NCBI GenBank assembly: GCA_934667465.1
Contig: CAKUMG010000043.1
Coordinates: forward strand, 1 to 15,233
Length of the DNA: 15,233 bases
Origin: an uncultured Actinoplanes sp.
Lineage (GTDB): Bacteria > Actinomycetota > Actinomycetes > Mycobacteriales > Micromonosporaceae
Direction: 5' to 3'
The notes below the pieces were generated by a model, which was not told the DNA's origin, ran no database searches, and saw only the letters and a list, made by a program, of their open reading frames with translations. Below are positions 3,695 through 15,233 of this stretch, piece by piece. The position numbers were made by a program, and so were the translations under genes. Positions within the stretch are counted from its first letter, which is position 1, and every line of letters begins with the position of its first letter.

Positions 3695-3743
3695 GACCGG
3701 GCTCACCCCTGGGTAGGGAGAGTGGCGGGATGGGGTGGTGGCG

Positions 3744-5402
3744 ATGGCGGAGGTCGAACGGGGCTGGGCGGCGTCGCTGCACCGCCTCTGGGGTGCCGTC
3801 GCCACCATCACGTCCCGCGAGCAGCTGGCCGAGATCGTGCTGCCGCCGCTGCGCACGCTGCCCGGGGTCGTCGCGGTGTGGGGGCTGCGGCACGGCCCGC
3901 GCGGCGAGACGTTCCTGGCCTACCGCTGGTCGGGCCTGACCCTCGACCAGGCCGCGGCGGTGCCGTTCGCGATCGGTGCGGACGGCCCGGCGCAGGTGTT
4001 CCCGGCGCCGGAGTCGCTCCGGGCGCGGGGCGTGGAGCAGGTCGTCGCGGCCGGGTTCGCCGTGCCGGGCGAGGCGCCCGGCACGTTCCTGGTGCTGGCC
4101 GGCCCCGGCACCGACGTGCCGCTGGTCGCCGAGTGCCTGGTGCAGGTCGTCGACGCGACCCGCCAGGCCGTGCGGCTGCTCGCGTCGCGCCGGGCCGAGG
4201 AGGACCAGCAGGTCCGTGACGCGCTGCTGGCCGAGGCGTCGCTGCAGATGGACGCCGTCCTGGACATGACGCAGACCATGCAGCGGGTGGCCCGGATGGC
4301 GGTGCCCGCGATCGCCGAGGGCTGCCTGGTCTACGTGTGCGACGAGGACAAGCCGGTCCTGCGCAGCGCCGTGCACGTGGACATGCGGCGGCTCGAGGCG
4401 TTCCGCAGCGACCCGGGCGCGGAACAGTTGCTGGGGGAGTTGGCCCAGGCGGGCGTGGCGGGGCACTCGCGGCGGGTCCGGGCCGACGGGACCGCGCTGA
4501 CCGGCACCCGGACCGTCGACGCGCAGGCGCTGCGGGCGCGCGGGCGGGTCGTCGGCGTCCTGATCTTCCTCTTCGACCGCGCCGACGACCTGGTCCCGCC
4601 GCCGTCGTTCCTGCGCGACCTGGCCTACCGGGCGGCGCTGGCCATCGACAACGGCGAGCTCTACGAGCAGCGCCGCCGCGACGTCGTCGCGCTGCAGGGC
4701 CACCTGCTGCCCAAACGGCTGCCCACCGCGGAGGGCCTGGACGTGGCTGCCTCCTACCGGGTCGGCGACCAGGTGCTCGAGGTCGGCGGCGACTTCTACG
4801 ACGTGGTCACCCGCCGGGACGGCGTGGTGGCCGCGCTGATCGGCGACGTGTGCGGGCGCGGGGTCGCGGCGGCCGCGCTGACCGGCATGGCCCGGCACAC
4901 CCTGGGCACGCTGCTGCACGAGGGCGTTTCGCCGGCGCGGGCGCTCGGGCGGCTCAACACCGGCCTGCTGCGCGACGGCTCCTGGCGGTTCGTCACCGCC
5001 GGGGTGGCCCTGCTGCGGCCGGCCGCAGGCAGCCTCGGCGTGCAGTGGAGCTCCTGCGGGCACCCGGCGCCGATCGTGCTGCGCGCCGACGGGACCGTGG
5101 AGGCCGGCCGCGGTGGCGGGGTGCCGCTCGGCATCGTCGCCAAGCCCTCCGTCGGCCGGTCCCGGTTGCGGCTGGCGCCCGGCGACACGCTGCTCATGTT
5201 CACCGACGGGCTGGCCGAGAGCAGGAACGCCGCCGGAACGATGTTCGAGGAGGCGGGTCTGCGGGAAACCATCCACGGGCTCCGCCACCTTGCGCCGCAA
5301 GATCTGGTGCACGAGCTGGGCCGCGCCGCCGCGGAGTTCGGAGTGACCGGCTCCGACGACATCGCGGTGCTGGCCATCCGGGCGAAGGAGCAGGACCGGT
5401 GA
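3744..5402 (+). CDS. SpoIIE/RsbU-type PP2C phosphatase with GAF-like domains
   Basis: Serine/threonine phosphatase of the SpoIIE (PPM) family, 552 aa from the ATG at 3744. Such enzymes dephosphorylate anti-anti-sigma (STAS) proteins in partner-switching pathways. Residues 10-150 and 165-305 look like two divergent GAF-type sensor domains joined by a charged helix (148-170). The catalytic domain (about 310-550) has GGDFYD (348-353), GDVCGRG (367-373), CGHP (438-441), TDGLAE (487-492) and DDIAVL (538-543), so the Mn/Mg-binding aspartates are intact. No transmembrane segment. GTG codons at 3735 and 3738 are alternative starts; the ATG is preferred because GGGG at 3732-3735 sits 8 nt before it. 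The stop overlaps the next start as GTGA, so the response regulator is made with it. No STAS or RsbW-like kinase gene is in the window, so the substrate is unknown. Confidence 0.9.
   Translation: MAEVERGWAASLHRLWGAVATITSREQLAEIVLPPLRTLPGVVAVWGLRHGPRGETFLAYRWSGLTLDQAAAVPFAIGADGPAQVFPAPESLRARGVEQVVAAGFAVPGEAPGTFLVLAGPGTDVPLVAECLVQVVDATRQAVRLLASRRAEEDQQVRDALLAEASLQMDAVLDMTQTMQRVARMAVPAIAEGCLVYVCDEDKPVLRSAVHVDMRRLEAFRSDPGAEQLLGELAQAGVAGHSRRVRADGTALTGTRTVDAQALRARGRVVGVLIFLFDRADDLVPPPSFLRDLAYRAALAIDNGELYEQRRRDVVALQGHLLPKRLPTAEGLDVAASYRVGDQVLEVGGDFYDVVTRRDGVVAALIGDVCGRGVAAAALTGMARHTLGTLLHEGVSPARALGRLNTGLLRDGSWRFVTAGVALLRPAAGSLGVQWSSCGHPAPIVLRADGTVEAGRGGGVPLGIVAKPSVGRSRLRLAPGDTLLMFTDGLAESRNAAGTMFEEAGLRETIHGLRHLAPQDLVHELGRAAAEFGVTGSDDIAVLAIRAKEQDR
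5384..5390 (+). promoter_or_regulatory. Shine-Dalgarno for response regulator
   Basis: GAAGGAG ends 8 nt before the GTG at 5399. It lies inside the last codons of the phosphatase gene and fixes the response-regulator start at the GTGA overlap. Confidence 0.7.
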
Positions 5403-5857
5403 GCGAGCTCGTTCTCGTCGTCGAGGACACCGAGGAGGACGTGGAGGCCATCGCCCGCGCCATCGGCCGGTCCCACCCCACCGTGCGGCTGGAGTTCCTG
5501 CGGGCCGGCAGCGACGTGCTGCCGTGGCTGACCGCCCCCGGGGCACCGCGGCCCGACCTGGTCCTGCTCGACCTCAACATGCCCGGCGAGGGCGGCCTCG
5601 ACGTGATCCGCCGGGTCCGCGCCGACCCCGGGCTCGCCGGGCTGACGCTGATCGTCTTCACGTCGTCGGAGGACCAGGCCGACGCCGACGCCTGCTACGC
5701 GGCCGGAGCGGACAGCTACATCTACAAGCCCATCAACTTCGCGCTGTTCCAGACCGTGCTGCGCCAGACCCTCGACTACTGGAGGTCGCGGCCGTCCTCC
5801 GGGAAGGTCGCCAGCAGCGTGGTCCCGCCGCCGGGGGAGTCCTCGGCCCACACCTGA
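5399..5857 (+). CDS. Rcp1-like single-domain response regulator
   Basis: Receiver-only response regulator, 152 aa, of the kind that pairs with phytochrome kinases such as cyanobacterial Rcp1. Visible: acidic pair E9/D10, phospho-acceptor D58 in LLDLNMPG, T88 in FTSS, and K110 before P111 (YKP). The receiver fold ends near W128 with helix 5 (FQTVLRQTLDYW); there is no DNA-binding output domain. Residues 129-152 are a Ser/Pro-rich tail. The GTG start overlaps the stop of the phosphatase gene (GTGA) and has a strong Shine-Dalgarno. The last 82 bp (5776-5857) are antisense to the end of the phytochrome gene. Being stand-alone, it must act by protein contact; the coupled phosphatase is the obvious candidate partner, and the convergent phytochrome the obvious kinase. 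Both links are inferred. Confidence 0.92.
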   Translation: MSELVLVVEDTEEDVEAIARAIGRSHPTVRLEFLRAGSDVLPWLTAPGAPRPDLVLLDLNMPGEGGLDVIRRVRADPGLAGLTLIVFTSSEDQADADACYAAGADSYIYKPINFALFQTVLRQTLDYWRSRPSSGKVASSVVPPPGESSAHT

Positions 5858-8001
5858 CCGCCGTGCCGCTCCACGATCCGGCGCACGATCGCCAGCCCGG
5901 CGCCCGAGCCCTCCGGCCCCGGCCTGCCGTGCAGCCGCCGGAACAGCTGGAACGCCTGCTCGCGCAGGTGCGGCGGCATGCCGATGCCGTTGTCCCGGAC
6001 CATCAGCGCCGCACCGGGCGCCGCGCCGACCTCGACCCGGCGGTCCCCATCCGGCGCGCTGTACTTGGCGGCGTTGACCAGCAAGTGGACCAGCACCTCG
6101 TCGAAGAGCACCGGGTCGGCGAGCACGGTCACCCCCGGCTCCGGCAGCACGACCTCGACCCCGGTCTCCTCCAGCCGCGGACCGGCCACCTCGAGGGCCC
6201 GCAGGGTCGCCTCGCGCAGGCCCAGCCGCTCCCGGCGCAGGTCGGTGCGGCCCAGCCGCGAATAGTAGAGCAGCGCGCTGAGCAGCTCGTCCATCCGCGT
6301 GGCGAGCCGCTGGATGGACTCCAGGCGCCGGGTCGTCGCCGGGTCCATCGCGTCGCCGGCGTCCTCCACGATGAACGTCGCCTGGTTCGCAATCCCGCGC
6401 AGCGGCTCCTTGAGGTCGTGCGCCGCGGCGTGCGCGAACGAGTCCAGGTCGACGTTGCTGCGGCTCAGCTCCACGCTCAGCGTCGCCAGCTCGCGGACGT
6501 GCGCGAGGGCCACCTCCATGATCGACCGGCCCAGCTCGACGGCCATCACCAGGTCGCCCGCGGACCAGGCCCGGCTGCGCCCCCGCACGGAGGCCAGGAA
6601 GACGGCCGTGGAACCGCGCGGGGTGAGCCGCTCCCCGTGCGGGCCGAGGACGACGGGCGCGTCCGGGTCGGTGGCCCAGCGCCGGGAGGCCGTACGCTCA
6701 TGGCGCAGCCACACCACGCAGTCGCCGGACCCGCTCAACGGCAGCACCAGCGCACCGCCCGGCGTGTCCGCTGCCGCGGCCAGCTCCGGCAGGTCCTCGG
6801 CCAGCCGGTCGCTGTGCCACAGCTCGCCCGCCGGCAGCGGGGGCAGCGCGGCCAGCAGCGCCTCGACCGTCGCGGGCGCCGGGTGCGTGCCGTGCACCAC
6901 GAGCCGGCCGTTCATGCGGACGCCCACCGCGTCGCAGTCGAGCACCTGCTCGAGGCCCGCGGGCCCGTGCGCCCAGCCGGTCGGCAGGTCCTCCGAGATG
7001 TGCTCCAGCAGCCGGGCGATGACCTCGCGCGAGCGTTCCCGGGCCGCCGACTCGTCGCGCTCCCGCAGCGCCGCCAGGTGCAGCGACAGCGCCACGCCGA
7101 AGAACTCGCACGCCGCCCGGATCTGCGGGCTCAGCGGCTTCGGCGCCCGGCCGTGACACGCGATCAGCCCCCACAGCCGCCCGCCGGACAGCAGCGACAC
7201 CGACATCGACGAGACGACCCCGATGTTGCGCAGATATTCCAGATGGAACGGCGAGACCGTGCGCAGCACCGACAGCGACAGGTCGACGTCCGCCTCGGGC
7301 ACCAGCCGCGCGGTCGTGTCGTCGACGTCGGCGATGACCCGGATCCAGTTGCGCTCGTAGAGCCGCCGGGCCTGCGGCGGGATGTCCGTGGCCGGGAACC
7401 ACAGCCCGAGCCACGGCTCCCACCCGTCGGCCACCTCCTCGGCGATCACCTCGCCGGGCCCGTCGGCCGTCTCGAACCGGTAGGCCACGACCCGGTCGTA
7501 GCCGGTGATCATCCGGACCTCCCGCACCGCGGCCTCGCACGCCTCCTCGACGGTGGCCGCCCGCTGCAGCCGCAGCAGCGCCTTGCGGACCGGGGCGTAG
7601 AACGCGCCGAACCCGGCGCCGGCGCTGTGCCCCGGCTCGAACTCGAGCACCAGCAGATCACCCGACTCGTGCACCGTGACGTCGAACAGGCCGCCGCCGG
7701 CCAGCGTCACCGGCATCATCGCGGTCTGCCCGGTCTCCGCCTCCACGAGGAGCCGCAGTGCGTCGACCTGCTCCGCGCTCAGCAGCTCCCCGATCGGCCG
7801 GCCGACCTCGGCACCCACCATCGCGGCGGCGTTGTCGCTGGTCACCGCGATCCGCCCGGCGCGGACCGCGACCAGCGCGCCGTGCGACTGGATCCCGCCG
7901 AGGCGGTGGATCGGCTCGCGCACACAGGCCGACAGGTCGAACGTCGTGCCGGTCTCGAGCTCGGCGGCGGCGGCGCGCCCGGTCAGCCAGTCATCTCCCA
8001 C
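5776..8001 (-). CDS. bphP: Bacteriophytochrome histidine kinase
   Basis: Red/far-red light sensor kinase, 741 aa, domains PAS-GAF-PHY-HisKA-HATPase, soluble. C26 in LSACVREPIH lies where bacteriophytochromes attach biliverdin, followed by the PAS motif GGIQSHGAL. GAF has PATDIP (D206), PFHLEYLRN (H253) and the ACH motif (H283, with Gly in place of the usual second His). The PHY tongue is unusual: PRGST (461-465) instead of PRxSF, and WAT (442-444) instead of W(G/A)G. The kinase part has the H-box FAHAAAHDLKEPLR (H528), N-box N643, G1 DNGIG (670-674) and G2 GSGAGL (698-703), all intact. GTG start; AAGG overlapping the upstream stop serves as Shine-Dalgarno. It follows the VOC gene by 9 bp and overlaps the convergent response regulator by 82 bp. 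No heme oxygenase gene for biliverdin supply is visible. Confidence 0.95.
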   Translation of the reverse strand: MGDDWLTGRAAAAELETGTTFDLSACVREPIHRLGGIQSHGALVAVRAGRIAVTSDNAAAMVGAEVGRPIGELLSAEQVDALRLLVEAETGQTAMMPVTLAGGGLFDVTVHESGDLLVLEFEPGHSAGAGFGAFYAPVRKALLRLQRAATVEEACEAAVREVRMITGYDRVVAYRFETADGPGEVIAEEVADGWEPWLGLWFPATDIPPQARRLYERNWIRVIADVDDTTARLVPEADVDLSLSVLRTVSPFHLEYLRNIGVVSSMSVSLLSGGRLWGLIACHGRAPKPLSPQIRAACEFFGVALSLHLAALRERDESAARERSREVIARLLEHISEDLPTGWAHGPAGLEQVLDCDAVGVRMNGRLVVHGTHPAPATVEALLAALPPLPAGELWHSDRLAEDLPELAAAADTPGGALVLPLSGSGDCVVWLRHERTASRRWATDPDAPVVLGPHGERLTPRGSTAVFLASVRGRSRAWSAGDLVMAVELGRSIMEVALAHVRELATLSVELSRSNVDLDSFAHAAAHDLKEPLRGIANQATFIVEDAGDAMDPATTRRLESIQRLATRMDELLSALLYYSRLGRTDLRRERLGLREATLRALEVAGPRLEETGVEVVLPEPGVTVLADPVLFDEVLVHLLVNAAKYSAPDGDRRVEVGAAPGAALMVRDNGIGMPPHLREQAFQLFRRLHGRPGPEGSGAGLAIVRRIVERHGGQVWAEDSPGGGTTLLATFPEDGRDLQ

Positions 8002-9213: not shown

Positions 9214-9662
9214 GGAGCCGTGGGGCTCTGCAGGGTGATCACCAGGGCGATCGTCGCGCCGACCGACAGGACGGTGCCGATGATGCCCATGACCCGCCCG
9301 ATCAGCGCCGGCGCGACGCCGTGCGCGCCGTTGGTCCGGAAGCTGAACACCACGGCCACGATCCCGAACACGATCCCGATCAGGCAGACCGACGTCGGCA
9401 CGGACAGGAGCCCGCACACCAGGGCCACCCGGCCGGCGTTCTTGCTGGGCGGCGTCGGCCGGGCGGCGTTGCGCGGGTCCCACTGCAGCCGGGGCGGCAG
9501 ATCCTGCACCTGCTCGAGCAGGTCCGACGCGTAGGTGGCGGTGCTGACCGCCGCGATCCGGGAGTCGTAGGAGGGCTCGGTGAGCTCACCCTCGGTGAGC
9601 GCCTGGTTGAGCAGGCCGATCACCTGGGTGCGGTGCACGGTGCCGATCCGCTCGTCCCTCAT
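9210..9662 (-). CDS. DUF1707-type membrane protein with two TM helices
   Basis: Small inner-membrane protein of unknown function, 150 aa. Residues 1-57 resemble the DUF1707 (SHOCT-like) module common in actinobacteria: R12..VIGLLNQALTEGELTEPSYDSRI, ending in LLEQVQDLPP. A Pro/Lys linker (about 58-77) leads to two hydrophobic segments (about 78-106 and 120-144), like DUF4190. Both termini are predicted cytoplasmic. The ATG at 9662 has a TACGGT box 9 nt upstream on the same strand and no Shine-Dalgarno, suggesting a near-leaderless transcript. It overlaps the convergent phosphatase gene by 4 bp. Internal CTCACCGAG repeats simply encode two Leu-Thr-Glu stretches. No functional prediction beyond membrane anchoring. 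Confidence 0.85.
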   Translation of the reverse strand: MRDERIGTVHRTQVIGLLNQALTEGELTEPSYDSRIAAVSTATYASDLLEQVQDLPPRLQWDPRNAARPTPPSKNAGRVALVCGLLSVPTSVCLIGIVFGIVAVVFSFRTNGAHGVAPALIGRVMGIIGTVLSVGATIALVITLQSPTAP

Positions 9663-9671
9663 GACGCGCCG

Positions 9672-9677
9672 ACCGTA
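9672..9677 (-). promoter_or_regulatory. -10 box for DUF1707 gene
   Basis: TACGGT (TANNNT) on the minus strand, 9 nt before the ATG at 9662; no clear -35. This gives the membrane-protein gene its own promoter downstream of the terminator of the kinase operon. Confidence 0.4.
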
Positions 9678-9817
9678 ACCCGCCGCCCGCCCGCACCGCG
9701 CCGGAACCGTGGATCATCACCCCGCCGGTGCCGGGAGGAGGCCTCCGATCGGCCCGCGGCCTTTCCACCTGTTCGAGAATGATTCGCGTCAAGGTGACAA
9801 CATGAGAGCTCGACTGC

Positions 9818-9850
9818 CGGGAATGCGGCGGGTTGCGCGCCGCATTCCCG
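9818..9850 (-). terminator. Hairpin terminator of the pknG-FHA operon
   Basis: Perfect 13-bp inverted repeat: CGGGAATGCGGCG (9818-9830), a 7-nt loop (9831-9837), and its exact complement (9838-9850). It lies 8 bp beyond the FHA gene stop. No U-run follows on the minus strand; actinobacterial terminators often lack one. The symmetry means it could also stop transcription from the other side. Confidence 0.75.
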
Positions 9851-9858
9851 TGAACGGC

Positions 9859-10743
9859 TCAGGACTGGGCCGGAGCGTGCAGGGTGATGGTGGTCCAGGC
9901 GCCGACGTGGATGCGGTCGCCGGCTTTGAGGGCCCGGCTGTGGCCCGCGGTCACCGGTTTCTGCTCGTCGTTGAGATAGGTGCCGTTGGTGGAGCCCAGG
10001 TCGGAGAGGAGCCAGACCCCGTCGATGCTCAGGGTCAGCAGGGCCTGGTTGTGGGAGACGCCCGGGTCGTCGTCGCGAAGGTCGATGTCGGGGTCGGTGC
10101 CCTGGGTGACGCTGCGGCGGCCGATGCGGACCTGCGGCGGGGGAAGGTCGAGGGTACGGGTGGTGGTGTGGTCCGGGAAGTCGACGCCCTCGATGCCGTT
10201 GGCCTCGAAGTAGGCGCGGTCCGCGGCGATCGTCGCCGTCCACGGGGCCGCGGCGGTGGCGGGCGCGGCGACCGGGGTCAGGGCGGGGACCTTGCCGGTG
10301 TGGTGGTCGTAGCCGCAGTCCTCGCAGAAGCGGCCCGTGCCGGCCCGCGGCATGCCGCAGTTCGGGCACGGCGCGCCGCCGTTCGGGCTCCCCGAGGTGC
10401 CCGCGAGGACGCTCGCCGCGCCGCCGTCCGCGGGACCTCCGGCCGGCCCGGTCGCGGATCCGGGGCGAGCTCCGCCTGCCACCCCGTTGCCGACGCCGGC
10501 TGCCACGTTGCCGACGCCGCCCGCGGGACCGTAGCCGCCACCCGCCGGGCCACTGGCATCTGCCGGGCCACCTCCGTTGCCGGTGCCGTGAGCCGTCCCG
10601 CCTGCATGCCCTCCGTGTGCCGATCCGCCGGACGGGGCGACGCGCGACGGCAGCGGGGTCGCGGCACCGATCTTGGCGCCGCACGTGTCGCAGAAGTCGT
10701 CGGTCTCGGAGGCGTGGCCCTTCGGGCAGGCGTAGGTGGTCAC
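9859..10743 (-). CDS. Zinc-ribbon FHA-domain protein
   Basis: Phosphothreonine reader, 294 aa, last gene of the operon and a likely substrate or docking partner of the PknG-like kinase, as GarA is in mycobacteria. Zinc ribbon 1 has C6, H10, C18, C21. Residues 38-123 form a Gly/Ala/Pro-rich linker. Zinc ribbon 2 has C126, C129, C140, C143. The FHA domain (about 205-290) shows GR (208-209), VSHNQA (S230, H231) and DLGSTNGTYLN (248-258), the phosphopeptide-binding residues. The ETT phosphorylation motif of GarA is absent, but several Thr (169, 171, 193-195) precede the FHA domain. GTG start overlaps the vWA gene stop (GTGA) and the ribosome site is weak (GGTGGGA), so translation probably depends on coupling. 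Domain call sure, partner inferred. Confidence 0.92.
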   Translation of the reverse strand: MTTYACPKGHASETDDFCDTCGAKIGAATPLPSRVAPSGGSAHGGHAGGTAHGTGNGGGPADASGPAGGGYGPAGGVGNVAAGVGNGVAGGARPGSATGPAGGPADGGAASVLAGTSGSPNGGAPCPNCGMPRAGTGRFCEDCGYDHHTGKVPALTPVAAPATAAAPWTATIAADRAYFEANGIEGVDFPDHTTTRTLDLPPPQVRIGRRSVTQGTDPDIDLRDDDPGVSHNQALLTLSIDGVWLLSDLGSTNGTYLNDEQKPVTAGHSRALKAGDRIHVGAWTTITLHAPAQS

Positions 10744-12005
10744 TGGGTCCGTCCCACCCGGACGGTCTTCGTGGAGCGGGTGTCCAGCGCCATCTCGTCC
10801 GCGGCCTCGATCTTGCGGCGCAGCCGGACCGTGCCCGTCGCGGCGTCGTCGATCTCGACCACCGTGGCCAGCAGCTGCTCCGTGGCCGTGTTGCCGCTCT
10901 CGTGGGCCAGCTGCGCGGCGCGGCCGAACTTGATCGTGGCCGTGTGGTCGTCGCCGTGCTTGCGGGCCTCGATGCCGGCCTGGATCGCGTCGGCGAGCTC
11001 GGCCTGGCCGGTGTAGTGGGCGACCTGGCGGTTGATCCGGGTGGACAGCGCCACGTCGTCGGTCCACACCGCCCGGACCAGGGCCTGGGCGTGCACCTCG
11101 TCGCCCTCGACGACGGACACGCGGGCCGCGAGCATCTCGTCGCCGGACGCGCCCTCCGGGATCTGGACGCAGAGGTGGTAGTCGCGGCTCTCCGCACCCC
11201 ACGCGCCGATCGGGTAGCGGCCGGCGCGCGGCCCGTCCTCGACCCGCTTGCCGGTGAGATCGGTGACCTGCGGCTCGACCTGCTTGACGAACTTGATCGC
11301 GGTGTTGACCGGCGTCCAGACCTTGAGCTGCACGTCGCCGCTGGTCTTGCCCATCGCGGTGGTCATCATCTGTTCGAACGCGACGGTCAGGTCGGCCGGG
11401 CGGGCCACGATGTCGACAGTGCCGAGCATCGCGTTGGCGATCTTGCGCAGCTCGGAGACGGTCCAGTTCGTGCCGACGCCGCGGCAGTCGCAGGTGAACG
11501 TGCCGCCGATCTCCTTGAGGACGCTCTCCAGGTAGCCGCCGTACTCGCCGTTCTCGCCGTCGGTCAGCAGGATCGCGTGCGCGATGTCGCCGGGGCGCAG
11601 CCCGAACAGCCGGTGCGCCAGCTTGAGCCAGGCGCCCATGGCCGTGCCGCCGTTGGCCTGGAGCCGGTCGATCGCGCGGACCGCCTCGGCCCGGGTCTGC
11701 GGGGACGCGACGGCGAGCTCGCCGGGGGCGGGGAAGAGCTGCTGCGCGGTGCTGACGCCGGCGATGATCGCGAAGTGCACGCCGTCCTCGATGCAGTCGA
11801 CGGCCGCCTTCGCCGCCTGCCGGGCCGCGGGCATGCGCCCCTCCGCCTGCATCGACCCCGAGCAGTCCACGATGATGATCTCCGTGGCGCCGCTGGTCCG
11901 CCGCCCGCCCGCGGCACCCGTGGACGTGACGGTGACGATCGCGTTGACCTCGGTGGCGCCCAGCGCGAGGAACTCGTTCTGGAACGCCTCGGCGGTGTAG
12001 GTCAC
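10740..12005 (-). CDS. vWA-domain (MIDAS) protein
   Basis: Von Willebrand factor A protein, 421 aa, cytosolic (no signal peptide or TM). The MIDAS metal site is complete: DCSGS (47-51), T121 in GGTAMG and D149 in LLTDGE. After the vWA domain (about 40-225) comes a beta-rich region (230-345) and a helical C-terminus (350-421) ending in Arg/Lys-rich strands. In kinase/PP2C/vWA triads (TerY-P type) this component is thought to be a scaffold. The frame extends to 12353, but the GTG at 12005 is chosen: it has GGAGG 7 nt upstream, overlaps the phosphatase stop as GTGA, and starts the sensible sequence. Unlike its three operon partners it lacks CxxC zinc ribbons (only an isolated CDC). Confidence 0.92.
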   Translation of the reverse strand: MTYTAEAFQNEFLALGATEVNAIVTVTSTGAAGGRRTSGATEIIIVDCSGSMQAEGRMPAARQAAKAAVDCIEDGVHFAIIAGVSTAQQLFPAPGELAVASPQTRAEAVRAIDRLQANGGTAMGAWLKLAHRLFGLRPGDIAHAILLTDGENGEYGGYLESVLKEIGGTFTCDCRGVGTNWTVSELRKIANAMLGTVDIVARPADLTVAFEQMMTTAMGKTSGDVQLKVWTPVNTAIKFVKQVEPQVTDLTGKRVEDGPRAGRYPIGAWGAESRDYHLCVQIPEGASGDEMLAARVSVVEGDEVHAQALVRAVWTDDVALSTRINRQVAHYTGQAELADAIQAGIEARKHGDDHTATIKFGRAAQLAHESGNTATEQLLATVVEIDDAATGTVRLRRKIEAADEMALDTRSTKTVRVGRTQ

Positions 12006-12985
12006 GGGGCATCCTCCATGGGGGTCGGGGCCGGGATCAGGGCGACGGTGATGTTGTCGGAGCCGCCGGCGTCGACGGCGAAGGAGACGAGCGCCCGGGC
12101 GGCTGCCAGGGGAGAAGAATTGCCCCGTACGGCGATCCGCACCACATCGGCGAAGGATGCCGTCTCGGGCAGATAGTTCCACAGGCCGTCGGTGCACAGC
12201 ACCACCACACCGGGCCCGTCCGGGACGAGCGTGCCGGTGTGCGGGCGGACGACGCCGGCGTCCGCGCCCAGCCACGCGGTGATGGCGTGCGCGTCGGGGG
12301 CGGCCCAGGCGACCTGCGGATCCGTCCCGAGCTCGATCGCGTGCCGGGCCCACGAGTCGTCCTCGGTCAGCTGGCGCGCATCACCCTCGTCCGGGACCCA
12401 GTAGGCGCGGCTGTCGCCCACCCACGCGTACCCGATCGTGTCACCGCGCCGGCAGGCGGTCACGATCGTGCAGGCCGGGTTGGACAGCGCCCGGCGCGGA
12501 TCGCCCGAGTCCGCCAGCGCGGCGACGGCGTCCGCGGCGGCGATCACCGCGGCGGACACGTGCGCGGCGGGGTCGTCGGCCGGCCCGGCGAGCACCTTGC
12601 CGGCGGTCTCGGCGGCCGCCTGCGACGCGATGTCGGGGTCGAACGAGGCGGACACGCCGTCGCAGACCACCACGTCCACGTCGGAGCCGCGCACGGCCAG
12701 CCACATGGCGTCCTCGTTGCGCCGGTGCCGCAGCCCCCGGTCGCTGACCGCCGCGGCCACGGCGAGCCCGTCCGCTTCGACGTGGTCGCGGGGGCGCCCG
12801 GCGAGCATGCCGCAGTTGCCGCAGTACCCGTCGTCGCCGACGGTGCCGGTCGCACCGCACGCCGCGCAGTCCGTACCCGTCGCCTTGTCCGCACCTGTCG
12901 CCAGGGTCCGGCCGCAGCTCTCGCAGAAAGCCGCACCCGCCCCGCGCTCGTCGGCACAGGATGCGCAGTCAGTAAGCGTGCTCAT
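12002..12985 (-). CDS. Zinc-ribbon PP2C Ser/Thr phosphatase
   Basis: PPM-family protein phosphatase, 327 aa, the expected eraser for the co-encoded kinase. Two N-terminal zinc ribbons: C7/C10 with C21/C24, and C40/C43 with C55/C58. The catalytic domain (about 75-318) shows SDRGLRHRRNED (81-92), VVCDGVSAS (D109, G110), GDSRAY (190-195), TDGLW (265-269) and GGSDNIT (D310, N311), so the metal-binding aspartates are all present. VCDG replaces the commoner VADGMGG. Soluble; no TM helix, unlike mycobacterial PstP. ATG start overlaps the kinase stop (ATGA), with GAGG 8 nt upstream. Stop overlaps the vWA start (GTGA). Confidence 0.94.
   Translation of the reverse strand: MSTLTDCASCADERGAGAAFCESCGRTLATGADKATGTDCAACGATGTVGDDGYCGNCGMLAGRPRDHVEADGLAVAAAVSDRGLRHRRNEDAMWLAVRGSDVDVVVCDGVSASFDPDIASQAAAETAGKVLAGPADDPAAHVSAAVIAAADAVAALADSGDPRRALSNPACTIVTACRRGDTIGYAWVGDSRAYWVPDEGDARQLTEDDSWARHAIELGTDPQVAWAAPDAHAITAWLGADAGVVRPHTGTLVPDGPGVVVLCTDGLWNYLPETASFADVVRIAVRGNSSPLAAARALVSFAVDAGGSDNITVALIPAPTPMEDAP
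12013..12017 (-). promoter_or_regulatory. Shine-Dalgarno for vWA gene
   Basis: GGAGG on the minus strand, 7 nt before the GTG at 12005, within the last codons of the phosphatase gene. It fixes the vWA start at the GTGA overlap rather than at upstream in-frame codons. Confidence 0.7.
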
Positions 12986-15093
12986 GTCCGGGTCCTCGGT
13001 CTCGCCGCATTCGCCTGGTCCACCAGGCGGATCTTCTCCGGGCCGTTCGCGGCCCGCGCCATCTCCCGGTACGCCGCCTCGAGCGCGAACCGTACATCCC
13101 GCTCGCCGGCCTGCTCGCTCGCCGCCGGGCGGCGGCCGCGTACGGGATCCGGGGTCTTCTCCGAGCCGTCCGCAGCACCCAGCACCGCCCGCGGGACCGG
13201 CGTGCCCGCGGCCAGCGCAGTGAGCGCCTGCTCCAGCAGCTCCGCCCGCAGCGCCGCGACCTGGGCCGCCTCGATCTCGAGCCGCTCGATCAGCGCCGCC
13301 GCCGTCGCGAGCGCGGCCATGTCGCCGGGGCCGCCCTGCCGGGTGCGCACCAGCGCCCGTACGGCGCCCACCTGCGAGTTCCGGTAGGCCGCCGAGTGGC
13401 CGGGCACCCGGTTGTACGCCTCCACCGCCCCGTCGCGGTCCCCGGCGGTGACCCGGCAGCGGGCCAGCCCCGCCGACGCCGTGGTGTACGCGGGATCGGT
13501 GCGGCTCACCACGTCGTAGTACGCGGCCGCCTCCGGGTGCCGCCCGGCCAGTTCCAGGCTGAGCCCGAGCGCCAGCTTCGGCGCCGGCTCGCCGGGCAGC
13601 GCCGAGTACACCGCGTCGAAGCGCTGCCGGGCCCGCCCGGTGTCACCCGACGCGAGCGCGAGCAGCCCCTCGTACCAGGCGACCCGCCAGTCCTGCCCGT
13701 ACTCGGCGGCGATCCCGTTGAGCAGCCGCGACGCCTCGGGATGGGCGTCGCGTCCGATGTCGATGTAGGCCCGCAGCGCCCGCAGCCGCACCTCGACGGT
13801 GTGCTCGGGCGCCTTGCCGAGCAGCACGAGCACCTCCCGCGGATCGGTCACCGTGACCGAGGCCAGGAACGCGGCGGCCGGGTCGGCGAGGTCGATCAGC
13901 GGGACGGGCAGGAACCGCCACTGCGGCGCCTCGTCGTGCGCCCCCGACCCGTCGGCCTTGACGTCCGTGCGCAGCTCCGCCGTGAACAGCCGCGACGTCG
14001 CCGGGCGCGGGTCGCCGTCGGTGGCGGCGAGCACCTCGCGCAGCACCCCGAGCATCTGCTCGCTCATCTCGGCCGTGTCGACGAACCGCTCGGCCGGGTC
14101 GGTGCGGGTGGCGCGGTCCAGCAGCCGGTAGAAAGACTCGTGGTCCCGGTACGCCGCGTGGTCGTCGCGCGGCGGCAGCCGGTCCCGGTAGGTCGTCTGG
14201 TAACCGCGGAAGTCCGTGGTCAGCACGGCCAGGGTGCGGCCGATGGTGTGGATGTCGCTCTGCGCCGACGGTCCCGCCTCGGCGATCTCCGGTGCCTGGT
14301 AGCCGACGGTCCCGTACAGCGCCGCGTCGTGGTCGTCGACGTGCACCACGCCGCCGAGGTCGATGAGTTTGACCTGGTCGCCGGTCTGGATCACGTTGTC
14401 GGGCTTGAAGTCGCAGTAGATCAGGCCCCGGTCGTGCAGGTACCCGAACGCCGGCATGATCTCCAGCACGTATGCGAGCGCCTGCTCGACGGGCAGCGGG
14501 TCCGGGCTCCCGGCCGCCCGCAGCCGCCGCTTCAGGATGTCCTTGAGCGAGTCGCCGCCGACGTACTCCATCACGATGTAGCCGGCGCCGTCGTGCTCGA
14601 CGAAGTTGTAGATCTTCACGATGCCGGGGTGCTCGACCTCGGCCAGGAACCGCCGCTCGGCCACGGCGGCGGCGAGCGCGTCCGCGTTGCCCGCGTTGAG
14701 CAGCCCCTTCAGCACCACCCACCGGTCCGACACATTGCGGTCGGTGGCCAGGTGGATCCAGCCGAGCCCGCCGTGCGCCAGCGCGCCGACCACCTCGTAC
14801 TGCCCGCCGACCAGGTCGCCGCGGGTCAGCTTGGGCGTGAAGTCGAACGCCTCGCCGCACGAGGGACAGAAACCCGACGTGCGCCCCTGCCGGTCGCCGC
14901 GGGCCCGGCCCACGGCGTTGCCGCACGACCCGCAGTAGCGCTTGTCCTCCGGCACCTCGGCCACGGCCATGACCGCGGCGGCGGGGTCGCGCGGGGTCAG
15001 CGGCGCCACGTCGACCAGCCCGCCCCCGAACCGCCGCCGGCTCGCGGTCCGGCTGCTGCCCGTGCGCGCCGACCCGCCGGTGCGCGAGTACAC
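12982..15093 (-). CDS. pknG: PknG-like Ser/Thr kinase, rubredoxin plus TPR
   Basis: Soluble Ser/Thr kinase of the PknG type, 703 aa from the GTG at 15093. It has a rubredoxin-like metal site (C54, C57, C76, C79) and a kinase domain from about 99: AHGGLGW loop, catalytic K129 in VVLKG, YCDFKPDN in place of HRD (D228, K230, N233), and DLG for DFG (D245). Then comes a long TPR region (about 390-620) with the FPGEPAPKLAL-like block written LPGEPAPKLAL. Mycobacterial PknG senses amino-acid supply and phosphorylates GarA. First gene of the operon. The start is uncertain: conserved RRRFGGGLVDV (codons just below 15040) proves the gene extends past the ATG at 14970, but upstream of 15093 the frame is only antisense to a TetR fragment. 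The natural N-terminus may therefore be missing. No glnH or glnX neighbour is seen. Confidence 0.9.
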   Translation of the reverse strand: MYSRTGGSARTGSSRTASRRRFGGGLVDVAPLTPRDPAAAVMAVAEVPEDKRYCGSCGNAVGRARGDRQGRTSGFCPSCGEAFDFTPKLTRGDLVGGQYEVVGALAHGGLGWIHLATDRNVSDRWVVLKGLLNAGNADALAAAVAERRFLAEVEHPGIVKIYNFVEHDGAGYIVMEYVGGDSLKDILKRRLRAAGSPDPLPVEQALAYVLEIMPAFGYLHDRGLIYCDFKPDNVIQTGDQVKLIDLGGVVHVDDHDAALYGTVGYQAPEIAEAGPSAQSDIHTIGRTLAVLTTDFRGYQTTYRDRLPPRDDHAAYRDHESFYRLLDRATRTDPAERFVDTAEMSEQMLGVLREVLAATDGDPRPATSRLFTAELRTDVKADGSGAHDEAPQWRFLPVPLIDLADPAAAFLASVTVTDPREVLVLLGKAPEHTVEVRLRALRAYIDIGRDAHPEASRLLNGIAAEYGQDWRVAWYEGLLALASGDTGRARQRFDAVYSALPGEPAPKLALGLSLELAGRHPEAAAYYDVVSRTDPAYTTASAGLARCRVTAGDRDGAVEAYNRVPGHSAAYRNSQVGAVRALVRTRQGGPGDMAALATAAALIERLEIEAAQVAALRAELLEQALTALAAGTPVPRAVLGAADGSEKTPDPVRGRRPAASEQAGERDVRFALEAAYREMARAANGPEKIRLVDQANAARPRTRT
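12994..12997 (-). promoter_or_regulatory. Shine-Dalgarno for PP2C gene
   Basis: GAGG on the minus strand, 8 nt before the ATG at 12985, within the last codons of the kinase gene. Supports the ATGA overlap start. Confidence 0.55.
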
Positions 15094-15233
15094 CGCCGAG
15101 CGGGCCGGCTGGCTCGCCGGCCTCGTCCGCGACGGCCAGGCGCGCGGGGAGCTGGACCCCGCGCTGTCGCCCCAGGCGGTCGCGCACTTCTGCCTCGCCC
15201 TGGCGGCCGGCACCACGCTGCTCGGCCCCGACC
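15041..15233 (+). pseudogene. TetR-family regulator, C-terminal fragment
   Basis: Open to the window edge. It reads LAVRLLPVRADPPVREY, then ERAGWLAGLVRDGQARGELD and PALSPQAVAHFCLALAAGTT, which is typical of the ligand-binding C-terminal domain of TetR regulators. The frame is open only back to a TAG at 14936-14938, and the sequence between is antisense to the pknG zinc-ribbon region. There is no helix-turn-helix, so about the first half of the gene is missing. It could be a broken gene remnant or the edge of an assembly misjoin. The ATG at 14969 is in frame but would start a meaningless leader. The 3' end lies outside the window. Confidence 0.6.

Follow-up and report, generated by a model that had tools for sequence, protein, structure and literature searches.

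The window analysed here is a complete contig of 15,233 b (CAKUMG010000043.1, from an uncultured Actinoplanes sp.) that ends at a gene for a PknG-class serine/threonine kinase, followed on the same strand by genes for a PP2C phosphatase, a von Willebrand factor type A (vWA) protein and a forkhead-associated (FHA) protein. These four genes are probably the downstream part of a seven-gene operon of an Actinoplanes-like actinomycete, glnX-glnH-X-pknG-PP2C-vWA-FHA, with the mode of action proposed below. Comparative analyses show the row to be real and conserved, an addition to a signalling operon already known, and apparently one not yet described. Because related genomes add glnX, glnH and X to the four genes, the row appears to be a longer version of the GlnH-GlnX-PknG pathway already known for aspartate and glutamate (Asp/Glu), and not a stand-alone switch.

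Genome contigs searched with the vWA protein yielded 27 related loci, 26 from Actinoplanes and near genera (vWA identity 81-89%) and one from Nostocoides (50%). The original prediction, made from this DNA alone, had named loss of the four-gene order in relatives as an outcome that would count against it; the order kinase-PP2C-vWA-FHA is kept in 26 of the 27 loci, the exception being Nostocoides, where the trio of PP2C, vWA and FHA genes has no adjacent kinase. Upstream of pknG, relatives carry genes for a membrane protein, a lipoprotein and a protein of about 380-400 aa, here called X. The membrane protein was observed in the three close loci inspected, and the lipoprotein gene (glnH) and X in all 26 close relatives. 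At locus L010 the membrane protein is GlnX (NCBIfam NF058618; 375.8 bits against a cut-off of 250); the lipoprotein belongs to the Pfam family SBP_bac_3. X of the same locus gave no Pfam or NCBIfam match above cut-off. It is predicted to be mostly helical (predicted local distance difference test, pLDDT, 90; predicted template modelling score, pTM, 0.59), and a comparison of the model with folds in the Protein Data Bank (PDB) returned nothing at E <= 0.001 (best E 1.0); X may be an undescribed long-helix protein. The original prediction held the input of the system to be unknown, but in relatives pknG has beside it glnX and glnH, for which a role in sensing Asp/Glu for PknG has been published. 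A search for further recurrent neighbours recovered only genes common to 5-11 loci at varied places. At L064, L065, L088, L090 and L097, pknG is preceded at a distance of 3.9-6.6 kb by a same-strand gene judged by eye to be citrate-synthase-like.

The earlier assignment of the four products as kinase, PP2C, metal ion-dependent adhesion site (MIDAS) vWA and FHA proteins is upheld by Pfam domains and PDB relatives. PknG_rubred (PF16919; 100.4 bits, cut-off 28.5; E 5.7e-29), Pkinase (PF00069; 96.4 bits, cut-off 31.7) and PknG_TPR (PF16918; 215.7 bits, cut-off 27; E 9.5e-64) occur in a single protein, whose nearest solved relative by sequence is PknG (PDB 2pzi; E 1.6e-134). With its rubredoxin, Ser/Thr kinase and TPR parts, the kinase is, judged by domain content, a PknG orthologue, in agreement with the class first proposed for it. 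Its Lys, the catalytic Asp/Lys/Asn and the Asp at the DFG position show no variation across 59 aligned sequences; in this and the following two alignments the window is covered and invariance refers to rows with letters at the columns concerned. PADLOC also returned kinase matches for the window proteins, which look like generic kinase similarity and were set aside. The PP2C protein has an N-terminal double zinc-ribbon-like segment that falls under the Pfam cut-off, and its solved relatives are bacterial PP2Cs. Its metal-ligand Asp positions are invariant (34 sequences), and from these conserved ligands an intact, active phosphatase is predicted. The vWA protein comprises VWA_3 and VWA_3_C domains (Pfam) and matches PDB 4fx5 ('von Willebrand factor type A') over residues 5-419 (E 3e-116), which is nearly its full length and takes in the tail motif described below; its MIDAS is complete (DxSxS, T, D) and invariant among 63 sequences. 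In the FHA protein, sub-threshold zinc-ribbon-like segments and a low-complexity linker accompany the FHA domain, for which the nearest solved relatives, weak ones, are the FHA domains of GarA and OdhI (E about 3e-5). The FHA core is conserved in an alignment of 41 sequences, not every row of which fills the columns: Gly-Arg (Arg 95%), Ser 95% and Asn-Gly-Thr 100%. The window protein has Gln at a position where 90% carry His.

A frame check reproduced the layout that had been claimed earlier: four frames on the minus strand, overlaps of 4 bases and a perfect hairpin of 13 bp (Table 1). The hairpin is predicted to fold stably (-30.2 kcal/mol, z -3.8); a scan of 9600-9900 gave no terminator-like site. 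The X and kinase genes overlap in 25 of the 26 close loci. In class-level regions, overlaps are possible between X and kinase (21/25), kinase and PP2C (19/31), PP2C and vWA (3/31), and vWA and FHA (Table 1). Coupling appears to be common along the row, which would be read as a single transcript, yet this is no demonstration of the fixed stoichiometry once claimed for it. That claim is unsupported because the PP2C/vWA overlap is not conserved and vWA has been lost in some lineages; vWA or PP2C is missing from some PknG operons.

Table 1. Features of the four-gene row and of the adjoining contig end.
Feature	Coordinates	Strand	Remark
PknG-class kinase frame	12982-15093	-	703 aa
PP2C frame	12002-12985	-	327 aa
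vWA frame	10740-12005	-	421 aa
FHA frame	9859-10743	-	294 aa
Kinase/PP2C overlap, ATGA	12982-12985	-	kept in 10/26 close relatives
PP2C/vWA overlap, GTGA	12002-12005	-	in 0/27 relatives; not conserved
vWA/FHA overlap, GTGA	10740-10743	-	4-base overlap in 27/27 relatives; possible in 8/32 class regions
Perfect inverted repeat, 13 bp, 7-b loop, 3' of FHA gene	9818-9850	-	without T-run
C-terminal tail of vWA (residues 410-421), disordered by prediction	10743-10778	-	S411 and T414 near-invariant
C-terminal part of TetR-type regulator; foreign contig-end segment, outside operon	15085-15233 (start approximate)	+	junction

For a class-wide survey, 296 genomes were drawn evenly from the class, and vWA was scored at E <= 1e-20. 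PknG_rubred was matched in 102 genomes (99 of them above the family cut-off). The vWA protein was found in 66, all among these 102, and in none of the 194 genomes without a PknG_rubred match. Of the 84 vWA places, 67, across 58 genomes, follow a PknG_rubred place on the same strand at a distance of at most 8 kb; among the 17 unlinked places, two sit at contig ends (G384, G470; at L093 a partial kinase lies beside vWA) and one, L081, is a copy whose region has no PknG-like kinase. Additionally, 50 further regions were picked by hand, and together with L027 this gave 38 class-level regions that carry vWA at a threshold of 100 bits. A kinase is present in 35 of them, and these 35 include PP2C and FHA in 30 cases, glnX in 31 and glnH in 29. 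The set is arranged either as glnX-glnH-X-pknG-PP2C-vWA-FHA or as X-pknG-PP2C-vWA-FHA-glnX-glnH, and its retention in both orders, with glnX-glnH first or last, argues for a functional link. Thirteen PknG regions are without vWA: ten hold glnX, glnH and pknG only, and three retain PP2C. Pairwise distances of vWA, PP2C, FHA and X track those of the kinase (r 0.88-0.94), for which shared ancestry alone could suffice. Separately, L079, L080 and L095 lack PP2C and FHA but have a divergent PknG-like kinase and a vWA protein with a zinc ribbon at its end, and L079 has a trypsin-like frame (by eye) just upstream; this set looks like a separate paralogous system.

At the contig end, the kinase start originally placed at 15093 proved not to be the native one. 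L001, L002 and L010, the relatives for which a kinase start was worked out, begin the gene further upstream, and their kinases have about 58-68 extra N-terminal residues, zinc ribbon included. For 22 of the 26 loci the match between window and relative stops within 15057-15107, for three within 15039-15043 and for the last one at 15130. The final ~150 bases of the contig hold a plus-strand TetR frame, recognised from sub-threshold Pfam matches and 92% identity to a metagenome protein carrying TetR_C_11. Because the relative match ends there and a TetR tail lies at the junction, 15093 is not taken as the native start; judged from this comparison, the contig junction has removed the N-terminal zinc ribbon and linker of the kinase. 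Assembly chimeras are common at contig ends, and the TetR/pknG junction is likely to be one. If a true rearrangement had taken place instead, the kinase would be fused to a TetR gene and broken, and the operon would here be without its sensor and its start. The position of the junction inside both the pknG and TetR genes favours such an event, but the junction is only about 150 bases from the contig end, and glnH and X frames precede pknG in every close relative; a real rearrangement is thus considered improbable. Locus L003 has a run of N at about 6750, within the N-terminal region of pknG, with its flank duplicated, and its PknG N-terminus is therefore unreliable.

The FHA protein of the row had been called GarA-like, a description that is not supported; the protein is not GarA. 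It scores 29.4 bits against the OdhI/GarA model (cut-off 200), its translation has no ETTS-type N-terminal motif, and the nearest relative genome (L101) has a separate GarA gene on another contig (207 bits). The OdhI/GarA model matches all 296 genomes at E <= 0.001 and exceeds the cut-off in 32, the weak matches presumably including other FHA proteins. At the position equivalent to the first Thr of ETTS, which we take to be the PknG phosphorylation site, the Thr is retained by all 13 genomes of one PknG-bearing set that has no vWA, by 11 of the 23 vWA genomes (lost in 12, once to Ser), by none of five PknG genomes whose sets are reduced or split, and by 7 of the 20 genomes that have no PknG. 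The idea that extended-operon genomes have lost the PknG-type Thr of GarA was rejected, as these counts give no clean rule. GarA Thr21 corresponds to OdhI Thr14 (PMC8546545). Outside the ETTSV set, GarA-type proteins mostly combine a zinc-ribbon-like segment at the N-terminus with a motif of xxTST type in place of ETTSV (observed among L103-L122, L136-L138, L140-L144 and L147-L162).

In the proposed mechanism, the lipoprotein GlnH would bind Asp or Glu outside the cell, GlnX would relay this signal across the membrane, and X would probably link GlnX to PknG. Active PknG would then phosphorylate FHA-type targets (GarA, encoded elsewhere) as well as partners from its own operon, and the dedicated PP2C would remove these marks and reset the system. 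The vWA protein would act as a scaffold through its metal site and a tail threonine, with the FHA protein binding the phosphorylated tail.

The tail was compared across 38 loci that have both the vWA and the FHA gene (34 class-level and four genus-level, the window excluded; window numbering is used). In this alignment 59 of 419 vWA columns reach 97% identity. Nine Ser/Thr columns are near-invariant: four in MIDAS motifs, three elsewhere in the fold and two within the last 11 residues, where T414 is present in 38/38 and S411 in 37/38 loci. The surrounding motif, STKTVR, is loose in L077 and L097, and the average conservation of the tail is no better than that of the folded part. AlphaFold2 gave the tail a pLDDT below 50 (18 sequences, first residue omitted; mean pLDDT of the five models 49.0-80.5). 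Among vWA copies at loci without an FHA gene, three of four end in a zinc ribbon in place of the tail. From its conservation and predicted disorder, the tail is a candidate phosphorylation or docking motif that may be phosphorylated and then read by the FHA protein. A GarA-like phosphomotif at the vWA N-terminus was rejected, as that stretch varies and its threonine is not kept across class loci. It is conceivable, if somewhat doubtful, that in most of the sampled PknG genomes (the 66 of 102 with vWA) the kinase acts through a complex that phosphorylation assembles from products of the pknG operon, with the tail threonine set by PknG and PP2C, FHA binding and a client at the metal site, and not through GarA alone. 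If so, the three-gene operon of mycobacteria and corynebacteria would be a reduced form.

Several observations weigh against an extended operon that works in this way. The window itself is without glnX, glnH and X, the upstream part having been lost at the junction because the contig ends at pknG, and 36 of the 102 PknG genomes have no vWA match. In the nearest relative genome (L101), GarA has Val at the residue aligned with the PknG site, and GarA may therefore not be a PknG target there. Between PP2C and FHA, vWA is absent in L090 and a fragment in L088, and L098 and L099 are without most of the set. On the kinase tree, which was midpoint-rooted and carries a long-branch warning, the full set takes nine changes over 50 rows and is therefore not one clean clade. 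Finally, PP2C-vWA-FHA lies about 55 kb from glnX-glnH-pknG in Nostocoides (L027, L091), and L081 has a trio copy with no PknG-like kinase within its 14-kb region; the trio may therefore work alone. These last cases favour an alternative in which PP2C, vWA and FHA form a separate complex-building module, resembling the kinase-PP2C-vWA sets known beside GTPase systems of actinobacteria and merely co-transcribed with pknG as one of several kinases that it uses. The confinement of vWA to genomes with PknG_rubred (none in 194 others) and the placing of 67 of its 84 copies just downstream of PknG_rubred speak against such independence, and we consider this alternative unlikely.

The extended operon can be compared with several known systems. 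The three-gene operon glnX-glnH-pknG and its Asp/Glu signal have been described (PMC6069109, PMC9769921, PMC8546545). The link from Asp/Glu through GlnH and GlnX to PknG was drawn from genetic and ligand-binding work on mycobacteria and corynebacteria (PMC6069109, PMC9769921), with GlnH-GlnX and GlnX-PknG contacts not yet demonstrated (PMC9769921). This operon is termed widely conserved, and Streptomyces is among the bacteria having the proteins (PMC6069109). The extended set resembles the Mycobacterium and Corynebacterium operon in its PknG orthologue, in the glnX and glnH genes linked to it in relatives, and in a GarA/OdhI-type gene elsewhere; unlike that operon, it adds X, PP2C, a MIDAS vWA protein and a second FHA protein. 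The gene for the phosphatase Ppp is sited away from the three-gene operon. OdhI is dephosphorylated by Ppp (PMC9769921). The main texts of PMC6069109 and PMC8546545 never use the word 'phosphatase', and PMC9769921 makes no mention of 'von Willebrand'. A paper that treats GarA in Saccharopolyspora (PMC12321487) has neither 'operon' nor 'vWA' in it. The literature search, with most subscription papers outside its reach, found no description of the extended operon.

In the TerY-P type triad, a kinase, a PP2C and a vWA protein occur together. The row is alike in grouping these three, and unlike it in having a PknG-family kinase, an FHA protein and, in relatives, glnX and glnH. The original prediction placed the row in the TerY-P type and saw in it a self-contained four-protein phospho-switch with its own unknown input and target, a view that draws on the presence of all four overlapping genes. 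In scans of the four proteins with Pfam, NCBIfam and PADLOC, libraries that we take to hold a TerY model, no TerY-specific match was obtained, nor did a Pfam scan of five other window frames detect TerY or Ter domains. Moreover, glnX, glnH and X belong to the set in most inspected regions, and GarA is encoded separately. A self-contained switch is therefore regarded as very improbable indeed.

The type VI secretion PpkA-PppA-Fha pathway also has kinase, vWA, PP2C and FHA parts. PpkA combines kinase and vWA in one architecture (PMC1262709), whereas vWA is here a separate protein, and the FHA protein of the row scores 36.8 bits against TagH, below the cut-off of 120.25. Kinase-PP2C-vWA sets have also been reported near actinobacterial GAP1-N2 GTPases (PMC7159879). 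These share with the row an actinobacterial kinase that often has a zinc ribbon, a PP2C and a standalone vWA protein, but they lie in another gene neighbourhood, and the word PknG has no occurrence in that paper (PMC7159879).

Should the longer gene set prove to be the usual version in other actinobacteria, then the phosphatase, adaptor and reader of this nutrient switch would have been overlooked so far. Actinobacteria are a phylum rich in antibiotic producers, and PknG signalling is known mainly from two groups of organisms, whose operon has three genes. Control of central metabolism would thereby be open to simple gene-deletion tests, and the tail threonine would offer a one-residue test.

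Elsewhere in the window, the minus strand at 5776-8001 encodes a phytochrome-type histidine kinase with the Pfam order PAS_2-GAF-PHY-HisKA-HATPase. Convergent with it on the plus strand are a SpoIIE-type phosphatase gene (3735-5402; Pfam) and a response-regulator-like frame recognised by eye (about 5400-5857). Together, these three may constitute a light-sensing set.

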